A DNA stretch of 64,000 nt from Proteocatella sphenisci DSM 23131 (GTDB taxonomy: Bacteria > Bacillota > Clostridia > Peptostreptococcales > Filifactoraceae). This document shows positions 52,267 through 63,276 of the stretch, in pieces; position 1 is the first letter of the stretch, and each line of letters begins with the position of its first letter. Made by a program: the position numbers and the translations under genes. A model generated the notes under the pieces. That model saw nothing but the letters and a program-made list of their open reading frames with translations, made no database searches and was not told where the DNA came from. Location: the NCBI RefSeq assembly GCF_000423525.1, contig NZ_AUID01000001.1, positions 124,001 to 188,000 on the forward strand, written 5' to 3'.

Positions 52267-52488
52267 TTAGATATCTATTGAGTTCAGTAAAGCTTTTAGT
52301 ACCTTGGCTTCTTCGATTGACAAGGTTACTCCCTTGCCCATTTTTTCATGATCCGGAGCCCATTCTCTGATGTCATATTTAGGCTCTCTGTCGTTCCAGC
52401 TAATCAAATTAAACTCTTTAGTCCATCCTTTTGAGCTTTCTGATAATATTCCTATTTCTTCAGTTATTTCATATTTTATATCCGCCAT
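52267..52488 (-). CDS. YdbC/PC4-family nucleic acid-binding protein
   Basis: A 73-residue protein that matches the YdbC group of PC4-like ssDNA-binding proteins (GWTKEFNLISWNDREPKYDI and the late GVTLSIEEAKVLKALL). The ATG at 52488 is set by AGGAG 5-6 bases upstream. It lies 23 bp after the methyltransferase gene on the same strand, so it may be the third gene of that transcript; whether it works with the restriction-modification genes is unknown. Confidence 0.82.
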   Translation of the reverse strand: MADIKYEITEEIGILSESSKGWTKEFNLISWNDREPKYDIREWAPDHEKMGKGVTLSIEEAKVLKALLNSIDI

Positions 52489-52511
52489 ATACTCTCCTAT
52501 AAAAATAAATT

Positions 52512-55500
52512 TTAACATTTAACAGTTTCTTCAATCACTTTAACCTCCGAATCATTTATATCATAAATCTTATAGACTAATTCATCTATTCTTTTATCGA
52601 TTTCAGAGATTTCATCATCTGAAGATACTTCTAAAGCCTTGATATACTCGTCAACCAATTTTACCATCTCAATATGATCAATCTCGTCAGCATACTTTAT
52701 TGGCAAACGCCTTACATCATTAACTAATATTTTTGGAAACAATCCCTTATTTGCTTTTGGTGAGCTTGACATATGATAATAAGTCATCAATTTTGAATTC
52801 AAGATCCCTAATATATATTTAATGTTACACTTTATATTAATACAATTAATAATTGATGGTGTATTATAAAATTCTTCTGATGTGAACGCCGCTAATATTC
52901 TAGGATTTGTTATTTCTCTTATAAGTATTCTTTCTGAGTTGAAATATTCTTTTTTCCTAGGCGCTGCTAACCAATCGCCATAACTTATCCATATTTTTCC
53001 ATTCCATTTAATAGAAAATCTATTCACGTCCTTTCCAGCTAACTCTGGCCTGTATGTTTCATCTTTTTTAAAATCAGAATGCCATACTCTATTCTTTATT
53101 GTTTCTATTGAGTGACCCCTGTACTTATCATAAGGAATCAACCCTTGAGAAATATCAGAAATATCGCTAAATGGTATAGAATTATTAGTTATTTTTTTAC
53201 ATATGATTATTTGATCATTACTCTTATCAATAATATTGAGCCAGTTATCAATAAAATTTGATAAATCATTTTTTGTTGTACATTTGCTTTTTAAAAATTT
53301 GATTTGATTTAATTTGATAGTCATTTTGTTGAATTTTGCAAAAAATTCCTTATCATTATTCTTTAAAAGTATAATACAAGTTCTAACTTTTGCAGAATCA
53401 AATACATCAATATTAGACAAATCGTCAATTACTAATATTTCCCAATTTTGTATAAGCTGTTCCCTATATTTTTTGGCATTAATATTAGCCATAAACATAT
53501 TCGGTATTATATAATTCACTAATCCATCAAACTTTAACAACTCTTTGGATTTATCTATAAAGAAATTTGAAGACTCATAATCAGGTACAAATCTATATAA
53601 TTTTGATAATATATTTTTTTCATTCTTTGAAAATTTTGCACCATAAGGAGGATTACCAATTACTACATCAAACCCGCCTTTTTCCTTAAACACTCTTGCA
53701 AACTCAAGCTGCCATAGAAAGAATGGCGGAGACGGCTGATTTTTTACTTCGTTATATTTTTCAACTATTGCAGGATTTATTCCCTCTCCCAGGTTCAGTA
53801 ATACAATATTATCAATTATTGATCTGATAGACCGTTTTATCTGTTCTTTTTCAGAATGATTTTTTTCATAAAACAGTCTGTCCTGTGCTTCAAATAGCCT
53901 TGAAAGTAACGAATCGTACTGATTCTGACCCACTGAAATCTGATAAACTCTATTTCCAAACAAATCACTTTCGTTTATAAGCTTTGCTCCATCAAGCTCG
54001 TCAATGAGGCTGTTTCCACATCTTATATTGCAATCAAGGTTTGGCAGCGGTCGCGGATTTCTGGTTACTGCGTGCATACCATCATCAACTGCATTTTCAT
54101 CCGTTTCCTGATCTACAACAAGTGAAAGCCAGAGTCTGAGTTTTGTTATATCTACTGCTGAAGGATCTATGTCTACTGCAAATATTGAGTTTTTTATAGT
54201 GTGATACTTCAGATTCAAAGGATGTCGGTCTATTTCGTATAGCATTCTGGATTTGAACTTATCATTGATAATCATTACCATATATTCTGTTATGTTTTTT
54301 CTAGCCCTTACTATCTCAGACAGCATTCCCAAAGGAAATGCACCTGAGCCCACAGCAGGGTCAGCTACTCTGATATTTGCAAGTGCATCATCCACATCTT
54401 TCAATCTGTTTATATTGCTTTTTGTGTCAAGAATCTCCGTTGAAATAAACAGTTCTGAATCTCCGTTTCTGCTGCTTATATTCGTATCCTGATCTTTCAT
54501 GAACTCACCGTAGACAATAAAATCTTTTATGGCATCATAGGAGATTCCCGTTTCATTTGAAATGTGATTTGCAAGGCTCTCCTGACACATATAGTGAACT
54601 ATCTCTCTTGGAGTATAAAATGCTCCCTTCGATTTTCTGTCTTTTACATCCAGAAGGTTTTCAAATATCTTTCCTAGCATCTCGGGATCTACTGCAACTT
54701 CTTTTTCAAGCGGTTCGTCTTCGTTCATTGTAAAGTTATATCTGTCGAAAATGTCCAGTATTCCGTCCGCATCTTCTTTTCCTTTTAAATCAATGTTTGA
54801 GAACATTTCGTTTGGAATATCAAAATCATTGTGGTTCCAGTCATAATTGTCAAGAGGTTCAAAAAGGCCGCCGTTCAAAAATGGTACTTTGCATTTCAGC
54901 TTATTGTAATATCCTATATCTCCTCGCTGCTCGTTTAATGCTTCATAAAAAAGCGGCTCCAGATAATCGTCAAAAAAATTAAGATTCTTTTTCTGGCAGT
55001 TGTCATACATCTTTCTTAAAAAATCTCTTGGACCAGTACCCCAGGACTGACCTTTCAGTGCTGCCGCAAGTATTTCCTGTTTGCTTACTTCATATTCTTC
55101 AATCGTCTTTCCGCTTATTCTTGTATACTGATCTTCACCCGTCTGTCCATATACTGCAGGAATAATCTCTTTTGTGATTTTTCCTTTAAAATACAGTGCG
55201 TCATTATACTGCTTTTGTGTCAGTGTTTCAGGAAAAGCATTTACTCCCAGCCAGCCTTTTTTCTGAATAAAATAAAGGAATGCAAGCTGACCCATGAGTT
55301 TTTTTGAAAATTGTTCACTCGTGAAGTCCAGACGCTCTGCTTCGTGCATAAAATCTTCATTTGACTCCAGATGCTCTTTGAGTCCGATGTATTTTTTTCT
55401 ATAGTTCTCAAAAAATTCCTTAGTAACTTTTTCAACGCTGAATGCCTCTTCAATCTGATCCAAAGTAGGATTACCCTGATCATCCATAAATATTGGATAC

Positions 55501-55985
55501 AGTCTCTCTTCAGCAGTATGACACGGCTCCAGTTCTCCCACTAAATATGAATATCTTTTTGCAGGTGTGAGTTTCTCGGTGATTTTTCCTTTTGCAAATT
55601 CGTAATCCAGCCTAATAAATGACAGTCTCCACTTGCCTTCTCCTTTTGTGTAAAATGCCGCTATTGCTCCATCAACTCCAGCCGCATCCATGAGCTTTTT
55701 TACAAAGTTTCTCTGCATGCTGCGTGCATTTTCTACAGTTTTATGGCTTTTGAGTTCTACTGCAAACACTGCAATCTTCGCTCTGTCTTCACCAGAAAAA
55801 TTTGCAATATGATGATATCCCTCTATGTGATAACTGAATTCAGACCATTTTCTCGAATCATTCACAAATTTGTCAGGACGAACGATCTCTAAATTATTAA
55901 AGAATTCAGTTGTAAATTTTGTAAATTGTGATATCTCAAAGGATTTTTCAAGCGTATCTTTGAAAAATTGTTTTCTTGCGTCCAT
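52512..55985 (-). CDS. Eco57I-type N6-adenine DNA methyltransferase/specificity protein
   Basis: A 1157-residue class I DNA methyltransferase. Motif I is DPAVGSGAFPLGML near residue 540, the FAVDIDPSAVDITKLRLW motif follows, and the catalytic NPPY (VVIGNPPYGAKF) is near residue 776. The ~350 residues after it look like a target recognition domain, ending in a helical region. The first ~170 residues hold an IAVFAVELKSHK strand that recalls a nuclease-like or NTD fold, unproven. It lies 6 bp after the PLD-helicase gene, forming a two-gene restriction-modification unit. The recognition part is more AT-rich than the rest, which fits exchange of that domain. Confidence 0.9.
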   Translation of the reverse strand: MDARKQFFKDTLEKSFEISQFTKFTTEFFNNLEIVRPDKFVNDSRKWSEFSYHIEGYHHIANFSGEDRAKIAVFAVELKSHKTVENARSMQRNFVKKLMDAAGVDGAIAAFYTKGEGKWRLSFIRLDYEFAKGKITEKLTPAKRYSYLVGELEPCHTAEERLYPIFMDDQGNPTLDQIEEAFSVEKVTKEFFENYRKKYIGLKEHLESNEDFMHEAERLDFTSEQFSKKLMGQLAFLYFIQKKGWLGVNAFPETLTQKQYNDALYFKGKITKEIIPAVYGQTGEDQYTRISGKTIEEYEVSKQEILAAALKGQSWGTGPRDFLRKMYDNCQKKNLNFFDDYLEPLFYEALNEQRGDIGYYNKLKCKVPFLNGGLFEPLDNYDWNHNDFDIPNEMFSNIDLKGKEDADGILDIFDRYNFTMNEDEPLEKEVAVDPEMLGKIFENLLDVKDRKSKGAFYTPREIVHYMCQESLANHISNETGISYDAIKDFIVYGEFMKDQDTNISSRNGDSELFISTEILDTKSNINRLKDVDDALANIRVADPAVGSGAFPLGMLSEIVRARKNITEYMVMIINDKFKSRMLYEIDRHPLNLKYHTIKNSIFAVDIDPSAVDITKLRLWLSLVVDQETDENAVDDGMHAVTRNPRPLPNLDCNIRCGNSLIDELDGAKLINESDLFGNRVYQISVGQNQYDSLLSRLFEAQDRLFYEKNHSEKEQIKRSIRSIIDNIVLLNLGEGINPAIVEKYNEVKNQPSPPFFLWQLEFARVFKEKGGFDVVIGNPPYGAKFSKNEKNILSKLYRFVPDYESSNFFIDKSKELLKFDGLVNYIIPNMFMANINAKKYREQLIQNWEILVIDDLSNIDVFDSAKVRTCIILLKNNDKEFFAKFNKMTIKLNQIKFLKSKCTTKNDLSNFIDNWLNIIDKSNDQIIICKKITNNSIPFSDISDISQGLIPYDKYRGHSIETIKNRVWHSDFKKDETYRPELAGKDVNRFSIKWNGKIWISYGDWLAAPRKKEYFNSERILIREITNPRILAAFTSEEFYNTPSIINCINIKCNIKYILGILNSKLMTYYHMSSSPKANKGLFPKILVNDVRRLPIKYADEIDHIEMVKLVDEYIKALEVSSDDEISEIDKRIDELVYKIYDINDSEVKVIEETVKC

Positions 55986-55991
55986 AATATA

Positions 55992-58900
55992 TTAAACCTC
56001 GCTTTTTAAATACATTGAAAGGATAATTTGCTTTTCTTCTCTTGATTTTTTTGTACTTTGTCTTGTTTCTGCAAAATATGCAGAAGGTACCCCATTCATT
56101 ATAACATTGTAAACTTCTGCTTCATCTTCGACATTCTTGAGGTCTTTTATTATCTGCTTGCTTATTCCGCTTGGGATTTCACCATTTTCCCAGAGACCAA
56201 GCATCCTTACAATATATGAATCTTCTACATCTGTTAGTATTTTGCTTTTTTGAAGTGCTTTAAGATATTTTATTATTTTTGAATCGTTTCCTCTTACACC
56301 TGATTTATCGGCTACGATTTCAATTTCCTGCGAAAGTGCATCATCGAATGCATTTTTATTTTTTTCAAGATGATCAAAATAATTACGTTCAACAGAGTAA
56401 CGTTTTTCAGCTCTATCAGATTTAATATAATTTGCTGCTGAAATAAAAGATATTTCTTTTGTACTATCTGTTGTTATAAAAAATTTTTTTAATGCACCTT
56501 TTCTTATGAATGTAATTGTTCCATCGGCATTTATTCCAGAGAGTTTTTTGGCTGTTTTAGCTTTCAATGGCAGCTTCTTTATCTTTTCAAATAATTCCGG
56601 TTCATTATCTCTTACTCTTCTTATTTCCGCAAGAAATGCAAGTTCCGGATTAATACTTTCGGTATCTTCATCCAAATTTTTCGTCAGTTCTTCATACAGC
56701 TTATGGGAACTCACTTCTTCATCATCTGAGAGATATTTGAAATCTTCTCCGAGAGTATCGTGAAACAACTGTAATTTAGATATTATCCTGTCTTTTATTG
56801 GTAGTTGAATATCTGTCTGTGAAGTTGGGAAAAAATTATAAATATAAATATTCTCGTGTTTACTACCAACTCTGTTTATGCGTCCGCCTCTTTGCATTAT
56901 CTTTGTCGGGTTCCATGGCAAATCATAGTTTATTAAAACATTTGCCCTATGAAGGTTTATTCCTTCTGCTAACACATCTGTAGTTATAAGAATATCATAT
57001 TTATCTTTATTTAGGTCCTCATATTTTGGATTGAAACTATATTCAACATCCATCTTATGGTATTCACTACTTTCACCACTGAAATAAGTTAATCTGCTGC
57101 CATAAATATTCTCAAGATTTTCTTTTAGATATTTCGCTGTTTCTTTAGATTCTGTAAACACAATTATTTTTGCACTTTTCAATATCTCATCAGTCTGAAG
57201 TTGTTTTACAAATTCATCCAGCTTTGGATCTTCTTTAATTTCATCCCAATGTTCTTTTAACTGATTCAAGATAGCTAAGTCATATTCAAGCGCTGGCAAA
57301 AATGTAGGTTTTAGAGCTTCAGATTTAAAATGATATATTTTTTCTTCATCAACCAATCTCATTAATTTTGCATCATCTCCATTATCCAACAGGTCATATA
57401 CATTAATTTTTTTACTGACGTATACATCTCCAGTTTTAACCATTTTTATAAATTTTTCATACGATAGAATAAATCTGGATAGAGTCATCCTAAAAGCATG
57501 AAAACTGCTTTCGAGTCTCTTTACAAGTATCGCTTTCATGAATCCACTCATATTCTGCTGAGAAACTAAGATTGATGCGTATTTTTTATTATCTTTAAGA
57601 TAAAGTAAAGGTGTATATCTTGCATATCTTAAAGTCTTTATTGCAGCTATCGTCTCACTGAAAACGTCATCTACGGCTTTATCAAATGTGTATATTATCT
57701 TCTCTGGTGCTCCAAGCTTTGGAAATTTCAAGCCTTGATTTTTTAAATCATCAGCATAATATTCAATAATTTCTTTTCTAGTGCGCCTTATCATGACGTT
57801 TCTAAGAACTTGATCTCTGATATTCTCAGAATTTCTTTTAAGTACAGCTTTATATTCTGCTGTTCCCTTCTTTTGTTTGTTCAATTCAGTATTCATTTTT
57901 GCAAAAAATGATTCTAAATTTTTTACATTTGGAATAATCGTACTGTTATGCTTTTGCTGAAAAAGATATATTTGATTTTCTATATCACTTGAGTAATTAT
58001 TTATTGGAGTAGCCGAGATTAATATAACTTTTTTATCTTTACATATTTGATGCAGATGCCCATATGCTCCGGTGTCACTGTTTCTAAATCTATGAACTTC
58101 ATCTATAAATATATAATCATATCTTTCAAGCTTTTTAGGATTGTCAGCGATTCTCTCAAGTTTTCCAAGAGACACGACATCTGCAATAACATCAAATTCC
58201 TTCATGACTTCTTCCCAGTAATCAACTAAAACCGGTGGACAAATCACGAGTTTATTATGTCCTTTTTTGAGACTTTTTGCTAATAAAGCTGATATATATG
58301 TTTTTCCCAAACCGACAACATCCGAAATAAAGACTCCACCATAACTATCTAGTACTTTTTTTGCCTGAGTTACTGCATCAAGCTGATACTGAAGTCGCAT
58401 ATACCCATCAGGGAGGAGTTTTTCTATCGCAGCATTTTTATCGGAATTTATTTCCTCTTTAAAATATTCATAAATAGTTTTTAAATATAACTCATATGGA
58501 GTTATATCACTCTTTAACCAAGTCTTCCCTTCTATAGTTTCTATGTATGATTCTTTAATATCTACACCTTTTATCCATAGTTCCTCAAACTTTTCAAGCG
58601 CAAAATCCACGTCTCTGCTATCTTTTAATTCAACATTGAATTCTAAATTATTCTTCAACCCCGCTTCTGAAAAATTACTTGAACCAGTGATTACACTTCC
58701 ATACATATCAGGAATCAGAGCCATGTTCTTTCTCATTATGTACACTTTTGCATGTATTGGCGATTCTGTATACATTTTCACTTCAAGTTTTCCATTGTTA
58801 AGCCATTCAATAAAAGTCCTCACACCTTTTTCAACATCCATTGTATCATCTGATGAAGTAAATTCTTTTTCGATACTTTCAGAATATGCTTCTTTTGCTT

Positions 58901-59165
58901 CTTTTTGTGATAAAGATTTGGCAACAAACTCTTGCTCCGCTTGTTTAATTATCTCAACAGTCCTGTTGTCAACATTTAACCCTACTAATATTCGTATCTT
59001 ATCAAGTTTTTCCATTGCTGGATACATTCTGAAAAAGCCACTGGTTCTAAAATATCCCACTAAAACGTCAAAATATTGTGTATTGCTTTTTAATATATTT
59101 CCAAATCGTTCATATAGGTTTCGGTCCGGTTCATTTGTAAAAAAAGTCAAGTCATTGTGTGTCAT
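55992..59165 (-). CDS. PLD nuclease - SF2 helicase fusion (restriction/translocase subunit)
   Basis: A 1057-residue protein. The N-terminal ~200 residues are a phospholipase D-type nuclease domain: PIHAKVYI (HxK near residue 137) and GSSNFSEAGLKNNLEF (near 161). The rest is an SNF2-like SF2 motor: Walker A DVVGLGKTY near 285, FIDEVHRFRN near 355, LISATPINN, and motif VI QRGGRINRVGS near 758. Single-HKD proteins cut DNA as dimers. With the adjacent methyltransferase it forms an ATP-dependent restriction candidate like the PLD-type enzymes NgoAVII and CglI, but with nuclease and motor fused. AGGGGG lies upstream of the ATG. Confidence 0.9.
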   Translation of the reverse strand: MTHNDLTFFTNEPDRNLYERFGNILKSNTQYFDVLVGYFRTSGFFRMYPAMEKLDKIRILVGLNVDNRTVEIIKQAEQEFVAKSLSQKEAKEAYSESIEKEFTSSDDTMDVEKGVRTFIEWLNNGKLEVKMYTESPIHAKVYIMRKNMALIPDMYGSVITGSSNFSEAGLKNNLEFNVELKDSRDVDFALEKFEELWIKGVDIKESYIETIEGKTWLKSDITPYELYLKTIYEYFKEEINSDKNAAIEKLLPDGYMRLQYQLDAVTQAKKVLDSYGGVFISDVVGLGKTYISALLAKSLKKGHNKLVICPPVLVDYWEEVMKEFDVIADVVSLGKLERIADNPKKLERYDYIFIDEVHRFRNSDTGAYGHLHQICKDKKVILISATPINNYSSDIENQIYLFQQKHNSTIIPNVKNLESFFAKMNTELNKQKKGTAEYKAVLKRNSENIRDQVLRNVMIRRTRKEIIEYYADDLKNQGLKFPKLGAPEKIIYTFDKAVDDVFSETIAAIKTLRYARYTPLLYLKDNKKYASILVSQQNMSGFMKAILVKRLESSFHAFRMTLSRFILSYEKFIKMVKTGDVYVSKKINVYDLLDNGDDAKLMRLVDEEKIYHFKSEALKPTFLPALEYDLAILNQLKEHWDEIKEDPKLDEFVKQLQTDEILKSAKIIVFTESKETAKYLKENLENIYGSRLTYFSGESSEYHKMDVEYSFNPKYEDLNKDKYDILITTDVLAEGINLHRANVLINYDLPWNPTKIMQRGGRINRVGSKHENIYIYNFFPTSQTDIQLPIKDRIISKLQLFHDTLGEDFKYLSDDEEVSSHKLYEELTKNLDEDTESINPELAFLAEIRRVRDNEPELFEKIKKLPLKAKTAKKLSGINADGTITFIRKGALKKFFITTDSTKEISFISAANYIKSDRAEKRYSVERNYFDHLEKNKNAFDDALSQEIEIVADKSGVRGNDSKIIKYLKALQKSKILTDVEDSYIVRMLGLWENGEIPSGISKQIIKDLKNVEDEAEVYNVIMNGVPSAYFAETRQSTKKSREEKQIILSMYLKSEV

Positions 59166-59564: not shown

Positions 59565-60386
59565 ATGACTTACAATGAAATCACATTTGAAAATATCAAA
59601 CATTTCACAGAAGAAGGAATTGAATTTTGGTATGCCAGAGAGTTACAAGAGACGCTGGAATATAAACAATGGAGACGTTTCTTTTCTGTAATAGAAAAAG
59701 CAATGATAGCATGCGAAAGCTCTGGCAATACTGTTGATGAACATTTTGCCAACGTTGGCAAAACGATAAGTATGCCTAAAGGTGCATCAAAAGAAATAGA
59801 TGATTATATGCTTTCCAGGTATGCCTGTTACCTTATAGTCCAAAATGGAGATCCAAGGAAGGAAGTTATAGCCCTTGGCCAAACATATTTTGCTGTAAAA
59901 ACAAGGCAACAGGAATTAGCTGAATCAGATGCAATGTTAACGGAAGAGCAACGAAGACTTGCCATCAGGGGAGATTTAACTGAGCATAATAAGTCACTTG
60001 TTGATGCAGCGAAAGATGCCGGCGTTGACACTAAACAGGAATATGCTATTTTTCAAAATAAAGGCTATCAAGGACTTTACGGTGGTCTAGGAGCAAAAGA
60101 TATACATGATAGAAAAGGACTAAAGTCTTCACAAAAAATTCTGGACCATATGAGCAGCGAAGAACTTGCCGCTAACTTGTTTCGTGCCACTCAAGCTGAA
60201 GCAAAGCTAAGAAGAGAAGGTATACAAGGCAAGGATAATGCTAACAAAGCCCATTTTGAAGTTGGTAAAAAGGTTAGACAAACAATTGAGGAACTTGGAG
60301 GTACTATGCCAGAAGATCTGCCTACTCCAGACAAGAGTATTAAGCAGATTGAAAGGGAGAAAAACAAAAAGAAACTTCCTAAATAA
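59565..60386 (+). CDS. dinD: DNA damage-inducible protein D (DinD)
   Basis: A 273-residue DinD homologue; in E. coli it is SOS-induced and blocks RecA filament activity. FWYARELQETLEYKQWRRF (Bro-N-like start), YMLSRYACYLIVQNGDPRKE and the middle region around NKGYQGLYGG are typical. CGGAGG lies before the ATG. In bacteria the gene is often found in mobile or defence regions. It is 45 bp upstream of the ImmA-like gene on the same strand. Confidence 0.92.
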   Translation: MTYNEITFENIKHFTEEGIEFWYARELQETLEYKQWRRFFSVIEKAMIACESSGNTVDEHFANVGKTISMPKGASKEIDDYMLSRYACYLIVQNGDPRKEVIALGQTYFAVKTRQQELAESDAMLTEEQRRLAIRGDLTEHNKSLVDAAKDAGVDTKQEYAIFQNKGYQGLYGGLGAKDIHDRKGLKSSQKILDHMSSEELAANLFRATQAEAKLRREGIQGKDNANKAHFEVGKKVRQTIEELGGTMPEDLPTPDKSIKQIEREKNKKKLPK

Positions 60387-60431
60387 ACAGTTGGCACAAC
60401 AGTATCAAATACTCCCATAAGGGGTGCTTGT

Positions 60432-60749
60432 TTGAATAAAGAAAAGTTTGTTGATAAGTTAATAAAAAAATATAATACTTATGATCCGTTCGAGATATGC
60501 AAAAAAAGAAATATTAATTTAGTTTATGAAAATCTTGGAAATGCTGTTTTACATTCTGAGTACAATAGAATTTTTTTGAATTCAACTTTTTATTTGCCCA
60601 GTAAATTTGAGAACCAGGCAAACAGATTCGCTGCGTATTTGATTTTACAAGGTTATGATGATAATTTTGAGGACATGGCTATAATGGATGTGCACAAAAT
60701 CACGCGTATACCTTTTGAATATTTGATGTTGATTTTATATTTATTTTAA
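60432..60749 (+). pseudogene. ImmA/IrrE-family peptidase remnant lacking the HExxH motif
   Basis: A 105-residue open frame from a TTG start with AGGGGTG 5 bases upstream. Both flanks match ImmA/IrrE peptidases: the start KFVDKLIKKYNTYDPFEIC, and later FENQANRFAAYLIL. Between them the expected CAHELGHAVLH is reduced to ENLGNAVLH, so the zinc-binding first histidine and catalytic glutamate are gone and the second histidine is asparagine. The missing ~25-30 residues lie between two LG pairs, consistent with an internal in-frame deletion. It could be inactive or a binding-only protein. No repressor gene partner (ImmR-like) is adjacent. Confidence 0.75.
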
Positions 60750-60764
60750 AAGGGGGAAATACAT

Positions 60765-62348
60765 ATGGCATTTATTTTGTTCGGGATAGTTGTTTTTTTA
60801 TCACTAAATCTTCACAGCTACAAGAAAAAGGAAAAAGATTTTGTTAATCTGGTTACCTCAAAAAAAGCTGAATTAACAGCTCTGGAAAAGAGGAAAAACG
60901 AAGAATGGACCAAAATGGAACAACAGAAGAAAGATGAACTTTCTTCCATAGAAAAGCTTATAGCAAATAAGGATTCCGAGTGGCAAAAAATTGTAGATGA
61001 AGCAAAAGCTCATGCTGGCAAAGAAATTGTAGAAATATCTAAAAATAAAAGTTTTTACTCAGATGAAGTCATTAGATTGAAAAATGATTATGAAAAATAT
61101 ACTAAATCCTGTATAACTCAAGAAAATAAATTAAGAAAAATAAAAGAGATATATAGAAGTATGGATTCTGCAATAAATAATTATACGGTATCTGATTTTT
61201 CTTTTGACAAACTTAGATTACCCAATACTGTTTTAGATGAGGCTGAACAACTATCTCCATCTGTGGTACTTAAGTTGAATTGTATGGATATCAAATCACT
61301 GAGAAAATCTTTTAATGATAATAACAAATTGATAGATGAAGTATTAACAAAATATGCACAACGATATACAACAAAGGCTAATGCTACAATTTATAAATTG
61401 ATGGTTATAGCACTCAGAGCTGAATTACAAAATATTCTATATAGCTTAAAATATGATAAACTTTCTGTTGCACTAGGTCATGTTTCTGAAATATCTAAAA
61501 AATATTTACAAATAGCTTCTGACGGAAATCAGAGTATAGCTCCTACTTTAGTTAAATTTATAGGAGAGCTCGAATACTTATTCTTCAATGCTGTACATAT
61601 CGAGTATGAATATTATGTAAAAAAAGAACAAGCTAAATTAGAACAACAGGCTATCAGAGAGCAACTTAGACAAGAAGCCGAAGAAAGAAAAGAATTAAAA
61701 AGACAACAAGAACAGCTTGATAAAGAAGAATCTAAATATGTTAATGAAATCGATAAGATAAAAGATCAATTGGCTTCTGCTGATTCCGAAAAACAGGAAC
61801 AACTTAATGCTAGAATAAAAGAACTTGAAAGTCAGATTCAAGATATTGAAAGCAAAAAATCAGAAATTGTAAACCTTCAAAACGGAAAAGCTGGAAGCGT
61901 TTACGTAATTTCTAATATGGGCGCTTTCGGAGAAAACGTCTTCAAAGTAGGTATGACAAGAAGACTTGAACCTATGGATAGAATAAAAGAGTTAAGCAGC
62001 GCAAGTGTGCCATTCTCATTTGATGTTCATAGCCTTATATTCTCAAATGATGCTGTAAATTTAGAACAAACGCTCCACCAGAGGCTGAATGACAAACGAG
62101 TTAATATGATTAACCTTAGAAAAGAATTTTTTAGAACATCTATTGATGAACTTGAAGCTCTCGTTAATGAAATTGATATAAGCGCAGAATTTAATAAAAC
62201 AATGCTTGCTGAAGAATTTAGACAAAGCTGCGACATAATTGAAAACGGACTCTTCCCTACTTCATCCGATGAAATTGACGAGTCTGATTATGAAAATGAT
62301 GAGAACTATGACGAGAACTATGAAGATGAACTTGAAGATGTAATATAA
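60765..62348 (+). CDS. membrane-anchored coiled-coil protein with DUF4041-like and T5orf172/GIY-YIG domains
   Basis: A 527-residue protein. Residues 2-17 are a hydrophobic anchor (AFILFGIVVFLSLNL); ~20-125 are coiled coil; ~125-285 resemble DUF4041; ~285-375 are a second highly charged coiled coil; ~376-465 match the T5orf172/MUG113 branch of GIY-YIG nucleases (GSVYVISN, FKVGMTRR, LEQTLHQRL, KEFF); the tail is very acidic. DUF4041/T5orf172 proteins occur in phages and mobile islands, with unknown function. GGGGG precedes the ATG. It starts 15 bp after the ImmA-like frame and is probably cotranscribed with it and dinD. Confidence 0.83.
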   Translation: MAFILFGIVVFLSLNLHSYKKKEKDFVNLVTSKKAELTALEKRKNEEWTKMEQQKKDELSSIEKLIANKDSEWQKIVDEAKAHAGKEIVEISKNKSFYSDEVIRLKNDYEKYTKSCITQENKLRKIKEIYRSMDSAINNYTVSDFSFDKLRLPNTVLDEAEQLSPSVVLKLNCMDIKSLRKSFNDNNKLIDEVLTKYAQRYTTKANATIYKLMVIALRAELQNILYSLKYDKLSVALGHVSEISKKYLQIASDGNQSIAPTLVKFIGELEYLFFNAVHIEYEYYVKKEQAKLEQQAIREQLRQEAEERKELKRQQEQLDKEESKYVNEIDKIKDQLASADSEKQEQLNARIKELESQIQDIESKKSEIVNLQNGKAGSVYVISNMGAFGENVFKVGMTRRLEPMDRIKELSSASVPFSFDVHSLIFSNDAVNLEQTLHQRLNDKRVNMINLRKEFFRTSIDELEALVNEIDISAEFNKTMLAEEFRQSCDIIENGLFPTSSDEIDESDYENDENYDENYEDELEDVI

Positions 62349-62434
62349 AGAGTCTTTGTATTTAGGAATTAAATAAGGGCATTTAAAAAAAGGGGTAAAT
62401 TTTAAGAACTCCAACTGGACTCCAAAAGTCCCTA

Positions 62435-62463
62435 TTTACATTTTTGCAATTAAAATATATAAT
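62435..62463 (+). promoter_or_regulatory. promoter of the toxin-antitoxin-chaperone operon
   Basis: TTTACA (62435-62440), 17-bp spacer, perfect TATAAT (62458-62463). The palindromic operator starts one base later. Confidence 0.78.
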
Positions 62464-62464
62464 A

Positions 62465-62490
62465 GAAATATAACCTATAGGTTATATTTC
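62465..62490. promoter_or_regulatory. 26-bp perfect palindrome, antitoxin operator candidate
   Basis: Arms of 13 bases with centre CCTA|TAGG (inner part ATAACCTATAGGTTAT). It lies between the TATAAT box and the toxin start codon, where an XRE dimer would repress transcription. There is no T-run, so it is not a terminator. Confidence 0.8.
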
Positions 62491-62508
62491 ATTAAAAGAG
62501 GGTATTAA

Positions 62509-62904
62509 ATGAATGATAATCTAATTCAAAAAATAGAGTATCCTGGCGAATCCGAAATATATGGGTATAGGGATTTCAATTCCGAATTGATGTCTATTGT
62601 CAAAAAAAGCGGAAAACAAAAGGAAATCGCACTCGGAATTCGTAAGTATTATGACATGCTTGGGAAAATGTCATTGCAGGAACTTATAAGGAATAAGCAT
62701 TTCGAAAAACTCAAGGATACAAAACATGATCTTTACTGTATCAGATTTTTAAAGCAGTTAAATTTACGAATCATTTTCATATTTATGGAAGATGATGGTA
62801 GAAAAGTCTTAATTCATGCTTTCTCAGAAAAGAACAAAAGTGATTACAAAATCGCTATAAAAAAATCAGAGGGTATCGTTGAAAGACTGCAAGGAGGAAA
62901 ATAA
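62509..62904 (+). CDS. RelE/HigB-like toxin
   Basis: A 131-residue basic protein of the RelE/HigB (Gp49-like) fold, which acts as ribosome-dependent mRNA interferase. The core is LYCIRFLKQLNLRIIFIFME followed by the C-terminal strand LIHAFSEKNKSDYKIAIKK. GAGGG precedes the ATG. Its TAA is followed without a gap by the antitoxin ATG. As in HigBA modules, the toxin gene comes first. Confidence 0.85.
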   Translation: MNDNLIQKIEYPGESEIYGYRDFNSELMSIVKKSGKQKEIALGIRKYYDMLGKMSLQELIRNKHFEKLKDTKHDLYCIRFLKQLNLRIIFIFMEDDGRKVLIHAFSEKNKSDYKIAIKKSEGIVERLQGGK

Positions 62905-63276
62905 ATGAAAACTATGGATATGACTTGGCTATTTGAAGGAATATCAAAAGAAGAATTAGAGCTCGACAAGCTTCTTTCTGATATCTCAATAGCCATAATT
63001 AAAGAAAGATATGCACTTGATATGAATCAAAAAGATTTTGCAAGACACTTAGGTATTTCCCAACCTATGGTTTCGAAACTTGAGAGTCTTGAATACAACC
63101 CAAGTGTTAAAACACTGTTTCAAATATGTAAAAAATTGAATCTTAAACTAGATATTAGTGTCACTAAAGTTGAGAGCGCAACAAAATCTGTGCTAACAAG
63201 GTTTGTAAATAAAAAAGAATCTGACGTAGCGCCCAATAGCAGTAACCAGGATAATCAAAGAGCAATCGCAGCATAA
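62905..63276 (+). CDS. XRE-type antitoxin (HigA-like) with C-terminal tail
   Basis: A 123-residue helix-turn-helix protein. The DNA-binding part is DMNQKDFARHLGISQPMVSK followed by LESLEYNPSVKTLFQICKK. Beyond ~residue 85 there is a ~38-residue low-complexity tail rich in Asn, Ser, Gln and Ala, which plain HigA does not need; in TAC systems a C-terminal extension (ChAD) binds the chaperone. GGAGG lies 6 bases before the ATG, inside the toxin gene end. It probably represses the operon through the 26-bp palindrome. Confidence 0.85.
   Translation: MKTMDMTWLFEGISKEELELDKLLSDISIAIIKERYALDMNQKDFARHLGISQPMVSKLESLEYNPSVKTLFQICKKLNLKLDISVTKVESATKSVLTRFVNKKESDVAPNSSNQDNQRAIAA

Follow-up and report, generated by a model that had tools for sequence, protein, structure and literature searches.

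A Probable Mobile Two-Gene, ATP-Dependent Restriction-Modification System With a Methyltransferase-Directed PLD Nuclease-Motor in Proteocatella sphenisci

Organization of the Locus

The window analyzed here, a stretch of 64,000 nucleotides from Proteocatella sphenisci DSM 23131 (contig NZ_AUID01000001.1, positions 124,001 to 188,000), contains on its minus strand two large genes, the first encoding a PLD nuclease fused to an SF2 motor (hereafter PLD-motor) and the second, which starts 6 bp later, an Eco57I-type DNA methyltransferase (MTase) that includes a target recognition domain (TRD; Table 1). The original prediction, made from the letters of this DNA, had placed here two open reading frames (ORFs) for proteins of 1057 and 1157 amino acids with this same spacing, which our analysis confirms, and had missed the third co-directional gene, encoding a small protein of the PC4/YdbC family. 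A promoter scan of the locus performed no better than on shuffled sequences. The remainder of a small defense island lies at 59565-63276 of the window. A BRO-N protein encoded there matches the PADLOC candidate PDC-S13 with 401 bits, and a T5orf172 protein matches PD-Lambda-1 with 273 bits; in addition, a small ORF precedes an HTH gene in a HigBA-like order.

Table 1. Features of the locus, in coordinates of the window.
Feature	Position	Strand	Remarks
PLD nuclease + SNF2/RapA-like SF2 motor, 1057 aa	55992-59165	-	Pfam; fold matches RapA and SauUSI
PLD nuclease domain, residues 17-200	58566-59117	-	Catalytic residues identical in 25/25 aligned homologs
H138xK140, S162xN164 and E175 of the PLD domain	58641-58754	-	
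SF2 motor (RecA1-insert-RecA2), residues 256-830	56676-58400	-	
Motor Walker A	58299-58322	-	
Motor DExH	58092-58103	-	
PLD-motor C-terminal domain, residues 831-1057	55995-56675	-	Less conserved (mean identity 36%)
Eco57I/PglX-like N6-adenine MTase + specificity domain, 1157 aa	52512-55985	-	
MTase N-terminal domain, residues 1-165	55491-55985	-	
MTase core, residues 431-870	53376-54695	-	DPAVGSG at 54342-54362; NPPY at 53643-53654
Hypervariable TRD, residues ~871-1096	52698-53375	-	Contains TaqI_C
PC4/YdbC-family small protein	52267-52518	-	ORF of 83 aa; likely 73 aa from the ATG at 52488

The PLD-Motor Protein

The presence of a PLD nuclease and an SNF2-like helicase on a single chain, as originally proposed, is borne out by the Pfam matches of the 1057-residue protein to PLDc_2 (residues 25-197, E 3e-11), SNF2-rel_dom (E 9e-10) and Helicase_C (E 2e-20). 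The nuclease site has the form H138-x-K140...S162xN164...E175, and the aspartate of the textbook HKD motif is absent. BfiI was a weak match of this site in PDB profiles, and the spacing of the HxK...N...E residues fits that of BfiI. The five residues H138, K140, S162, N164 and E175, together with those of the motor (GKT 287-289, DExH 355-358, T386 and Q758/R762/R765 of motif VI), are identical in all 25 aligned homologs, and pairwise dN/dS values are 0.03-0.08, PLD domain included. In the wider set of homologs the sole exception to the conservation of the PLD site is L030 (L030:1944-5039), a Methanosphaera relative of 36% identity in which the histidine of this site is gone; the 13.9 kb of the locus include no NPPY-type MTase. 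The C-terminal domain is possibly a docking region.

The structural model of the protein (pLDDT 80.4) has RapA as its top fold match, and SauUSI is found at rank 16. The PADLOC "HKD+Snf2" model scores 167 bits, and the best NCBIfam match is DrmD, whose score of 157.8 bits falls short of the cut-off of 610. SauUSI carries the PLD domain followed by the SF2 motor on one chain, as the protein studied here does, and differs from it in having its own C-terminal reader of modified cytosine and no MTase partner (PMC7913695). The shared domain order and the fold match would suit a Type IV-like, modification-dependent nuclease akin to SauUSI, tied to the MTase by co-mobility only. This is very improbable, since neither SRA nor EVE nor DUF3427, the reader domains for modified bases, was found on the PLD-motor with Pfam, and the tight linkage to an MTase described below is not expected of such a nuclease. 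Another fusion of PLD and motor, a PLD-DEAD-DUF3427 protein, is present in the same class at locus L093.

The Methyltransferase

The second protein matches Eco57I (E 2e-30), N6_Mtase (E 5e-12) and the TaqI_C specificity domain (E 7e-22) in Pfam, in agreement with the original reading of an Eco57I-type MTase with a recognition domain. In its motifs D542...G546xG548 and NPP(Y/W), the aspartate, both glycines and NPP are identical across 25 aligned homologs. In the model (pLDDT 77.5), CamA is the best fold match over the core and BrxX/PglX matches over most of the length, and the PglX sequence models reach 19-35 bits vs cut-offs of 400-900.

The N-terminal domain deserves attention because the PADLOC model for Type IIG enzymes, in which the methylase cuts DNA by itself, takes 18 out of 18 MTases of this family (459 bits for that of the window). 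The MTase could then be self-sufficient, cutting by its own N-terminal domain, with the PLD-motor as a separate defense enzyme in the same operon. In fact, the predicted order of secondary structure in the domain (helix-3 strands-helix-strand) resembles that of PD-(D/E)XK enzymes, so that the fold may be nuclease-like, and the exchange of TRDs reported below would be equally expected with the PLD-motor as an independent partner. However, no catalytic D/E-x-K pair is conserved in this domain among the homologs: E77 and K79 vary freely, and the 12 invariant residues, which include R88, R92 and W119-R120, comprise a single acidic one, E153. Furthermore, the near-constant adjacency of the two genes and their co-divergence (r 0.93) are unexpected for independent enzymes. 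We consider this explanation unlikely and rejected it as the main reading; because the domain has no conserved nuclease residues, the Type IIG label is probably a misfiling. A PDB profile search with the domain gave no significant match, and we infer that it has a non-catalytic docking or sensing function.

Distribution and Linkage of the Pair

One scan of genome contigs returned 27 PLD-motor loci, distributed in Lachnospiraceae and other Clostridia, Bacillaceae, Selenomonadaceae, Gastranaerophilales, Campylobacterota, Spirochaetes and Bacteroidota, in a contig labeled Planctomycetaceae and in methanogenic archaea. An MTase adjoins every PLD-motor with room on the matching side, except at L022 and at L030, the locus with the inactivated PLD site. 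In 21 loci, window included, it follows the PLD-motor with a spacing of -7 to +22 bp; these loci extend over Firmicutes, Campylobacterota, Gastranaerophilales and methanogens, with identities down to 39%. More distant relatives (27-36% identity), carried by plasmids of Bacteroidota, Cyanobacteria, Deinococcota and haloarchaea, have an Eco57I-type MTase nearby as well. The other genes that recur in at least three loci encode YdbC (9), tyrosine-type integrases (6), HTH regulators (4) and transporters (3); no third large gene or further subunit recurs among the neighbors.

Both genes are present on nine of ten viral contigs, and phage records gave partial, low-identity matches only. The PLD-motor and the MTase were each found in 5 of 391 genomes from the same class, a patchy occurrence like that of mobile defense genes; in a genome scored for the motor only (G189), the start of the MTase is still visible at the contig edge. 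At one further locus (L169, G082:C29:12500-21500) the MTase is intact and in frame and only the last third of the motor is left, the PLD domain and the first motor lobe being missing and the YdbC remnant frameshifted. This MTase is probably an orphan methylase, a state that, although seen in a single case, agrees with a tolerated loss of restriction.

Exchange of the Target Recognition Domain

The two proteins have diverged together, with the exception of one domain. Distances between PLD-motors correlate with those between residues 1-870 of the MTases (Mantel r 0.93, 0 of 2000 permutations), and show no correlation with the distances between TRDs (r -0.05). In 13 of the 14 locus pairs whose motors are at least 71% identical, TRD identity is 16-28%, that is, the domains are unrelated; the remaining pair, L014/L031, has kept the same TRD (85%). 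L014 and L020 have PLD-motors that are 97.1% identical and MTases of about 95% identity up to residue ~750, beyond which identity falls to 20-46% per block, with 28% in the TRD. A similar break is found between L006 and L026, in which the PLD-motors are 95.0% identical, the MTases are about 95% identical before the break and 14-28% per block after it, and the TRDs share 19%. At the DNA level, L014 and L020 are 79-97% identical in the MTase gene up to the TRD, 44-69% in the TRD and again 76-94% around YdbC. The two segments, L014:9001-16135 and L020:9001-16132, amount to a natural specificity swap.

Had the motor-nuclease recognized its target by itself, it should have changed together with the TRD. 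Because the motor stays constant while the TRD changes, it is most likely the MTase that selects the target, as it does in Type I and Type III systems, and the TRD swaps behind a motor that is 95-97% identical strongly imply, at the level of sequence, that the specificity of restriction is delivered by the MTase. The situation resembles that of EcoPI and EcoP15I, in which the Res subunits are nearly identical and the specificity of Mod is different (PMC4005696): in both cases the motor-nuclease is near-constant and the methylase specificity varies. Specificity carried by the MTase would set this system apart from SauUSI and from CglI/NgoAVII, which have, respectively, a reader and a B3 domain of their own.

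The PC4/YdbC Gene

The ORF of the third gene shares 7 bp with the MTase gene, at the end of the latter, whereas translation from the likely start codon of the third gene leaves a gap of 23 bp. The product is probably a single-stranded DNA (ssDNA) binder. YdbC lies behind the MTase at 9 of 16 loci, namely the window and 8 of the 15 contig loci with visible room, where it lies -4 to +16 bp from the MTase stop codon. All the loci bearing it are in Clostridia-like hosts, and three of the eight (L014, L020 and L031) are closely related to one another.

YdbC genes are widespread in the class, occurring in 129 of 391 genomes, and usually lie beside housekeeping genes. It directly follows a restriction-modification (R-M) or CBASS gene in 7 of 80 YdbC loci, surveyed in one class (L078, L093, L095, L097, L100, L101 and L108), the preceding genes encoding HsdR (three times), HsdS, a Type III Res, the PLD-DEAD-DUF3427 protein and a CBASS synthetase. 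In genome G249 there are two YdbC genes, one behind a Res and one behind an HsdR gene. None of the listed R-M families was found among 40 scanned downstream neighbors of YdbC. With seven such cases in 80 and most copies beside housekeeping genes, the idea that YdbC is a general R-M gene was rejected. Instead, it would be an optional accessory that apparently favors ATP-dependent R-M operons, possibly an ssDNA-binding accessory shared by restriction operons, and a role in the two-gene unit is plausible.

Relationship to Known Systems

In its division of labor the pair is like the Type III systems EcoPI and EcoP15I (Mod2Res1), in which one gene provides methylase and TRD and the other motor and nuclease. 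The original prediction had regarded this split as an intermediate design; it is in fact the standard Res/Mod layout of Type III, which had been left unconsidered, and nothing in this analysis gives the locus an intermediate position in evolution between CglI and Type ISP. We favor a system that works like Type III, whereas membership of that type fails on the nuclease and on the MTase class. In Type III the nuclease is of the RecB/PD-(D/E)XK kind, in contrast with the PLD domain here, and Mod belongs to the N6_N4 methylase (beta) group, in contrast with the Eco57I, N6_Mtase and TaqI_C domains of this MTase. The SNF2/RapA-like motor, the C-terminal TaqI-like TRD and the nuclease-motor gene in first position are further differences. 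Type ISP enzymes (LlaGI/LlaBIII) are likewise ATP-dependent and have a motor, an adenine MTase and a TRD that cooperate, but on one chain and with a different nuclease, as had been correctly pointed out; here there are two chains and a PLD nuclease.

CglI and NgoAVII depend on both a PLD nuclease and an SF2 ATPase, and the PLD chain with its own B3 domain, the Z1-type ATPase chain and a C5-cytosine MTase are separate (PMC4267653). In the present pair, unlike these systems, the PLD domain is fused to the motor, the MTase is of the adenine type and specificity apparently comes from it. Neither B3 nor Z1 domains were found in the pair by a family profile search, and private recognition by the nuclease chain, as in CglI/NgoAVII, was rejected on the lack of a B3-type domain and on the constancy of the motor despite TRD change. 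The earlier generalization, in which the nuclease and the ATPase of PLD-type ATP-dependent enzymes are on separate chains, holds for CglI and NgoAVII; it does not for SauUSI and the Type-2 BREX-related systems, in which PLD and motor are already known on one chain.

These latter systems (BR; related neighborhoods are termed Hma) resemble the pair in combining an N-terminal HKD/PLD domain, a Swi2/Snf2 motor and an N6-MTase, as they possess an HKD-Swi2/Snf2 helicase fusion and an N6-MTase; they are built round a DUF499 ATPase, and DUF3780 occurs in 98% of the Type-2 loci (PMC12839542). Membership was rejected, since a profile search found DUF499 (PF04465) nowhere in the genome; moreover, neither DUF499 nor DUF3780 is among the recurrent neighbors at the loci. 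DISARM membership was rejected as well, with MZB (PF09369, the DrmA/B-type domain) absent from the whole genome and DrmD below its cut-off. A RapA-like helicase beside a PglX-like MTase is common to DISARM class I and ARMADA (PMC12458937). This adjacency is the likeness of the pair to BREX, DISARM class I and ARMADA, and the difference is that none of their other subunits is found at the loci, BrxC and PglZ not being among the recurrent neighbors, and that here the pair stands alone with a nuclease fused to the helicase, which is what the locus looks like.

A point against an R-M reading of the pair is that BREX, whose PglX the MTase resembles, blocks phage replication and is not known to act as a classical restriction enzyme. 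The pair could be a stripped-down unit of the DISARM/BREX kind, in which the MTase marks self and the target of the RapA-like PLD-motor is phage DNA that is replicating or has exposed ends, with no need for the methylation motif. The recurrence of the helicase-MTase pair in DISARM class I and ARMADA, the MTase fold match to BrxX/PglX, the motor's best family match being DrmD and its top fold match RapA, a model for BrxHII-like helicases, all point in this direction; a PC4-like third gene would fit an ssDNA-linked role, and phages without the methylation motif can be restricted by DISARM (PMC9142583). Against this, the DrmD score is far under the cut-off (158 vs 610 bits), MZB and DUF499 are absent genome-wide and no further subunit recurs, and we regard such a mode of action as improbable.

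A characterized ortholog of identical layout, or a published account of the pair standing alone, was not found in a mainly open-access literature, in which the pair appears only within larger systems.

Proposed Mechanism

The reading that we consider probable is a mobile two-gene, ATP-dependent R-M system in which the MTase directs the PLD-motor. It builds on the anatomy of the two proteins, the conservation of their catalytic residues, their fixed pairing and the exchange of the TRD alone behind a near-constant motor, all of which are established. An ATP-dependent R-M unit divided into nuclease with motor and methylase with specificity, as originally proposed, is still the best reading, and the TRD swaps strengthen it. 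The 1157-residue MTase would read the target through its C-terminal TRD and presumably methylate adenine there. The 1057-residue protein would act as shared motor and nuclease, recruited via the methylase, in a putative complex, to unmodified sites on incoming DNA, where it would hydrolyze ATP and either move along the DNA or switch state on it, and finally cut through a dimeric PLD active site. PC4/YdbC may serve as an optional ssDNA-binding accessory.

A broader view, which we put forward tentatively and hold to be doubtful, is that the pair represents a class of its own: a free-standing and widespread form of ATP-dependent restriction that fits none of Types I-IV as defined, in which the RapA-like helicase and PglX-like methylase of BREX and DISARM have been cut to two genes and have gained a PLD nuclease by fusion, with TRD exchange as the means of retargeting and, in Clostridia, with a PC4-type ssDNA-binding subunit as an aid.

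Implications

If the MTase-directed reading is true, genes now annotated separately as "helicase-related protein" and as "N-6 DNA methylase" or "Type IIG" would belong to one widespread ATP-dependent restriction system, the specificity of which could be changed by replacing one methylase domain. In L014/L020 and L006/L026, nature has already set up such swap experiments. The system would, moreover, represent the helicase-methylase pair of BREX, DISARM and ARMADA in its simplest free-standing form, and would thus offer a tractable model for how that pair works.
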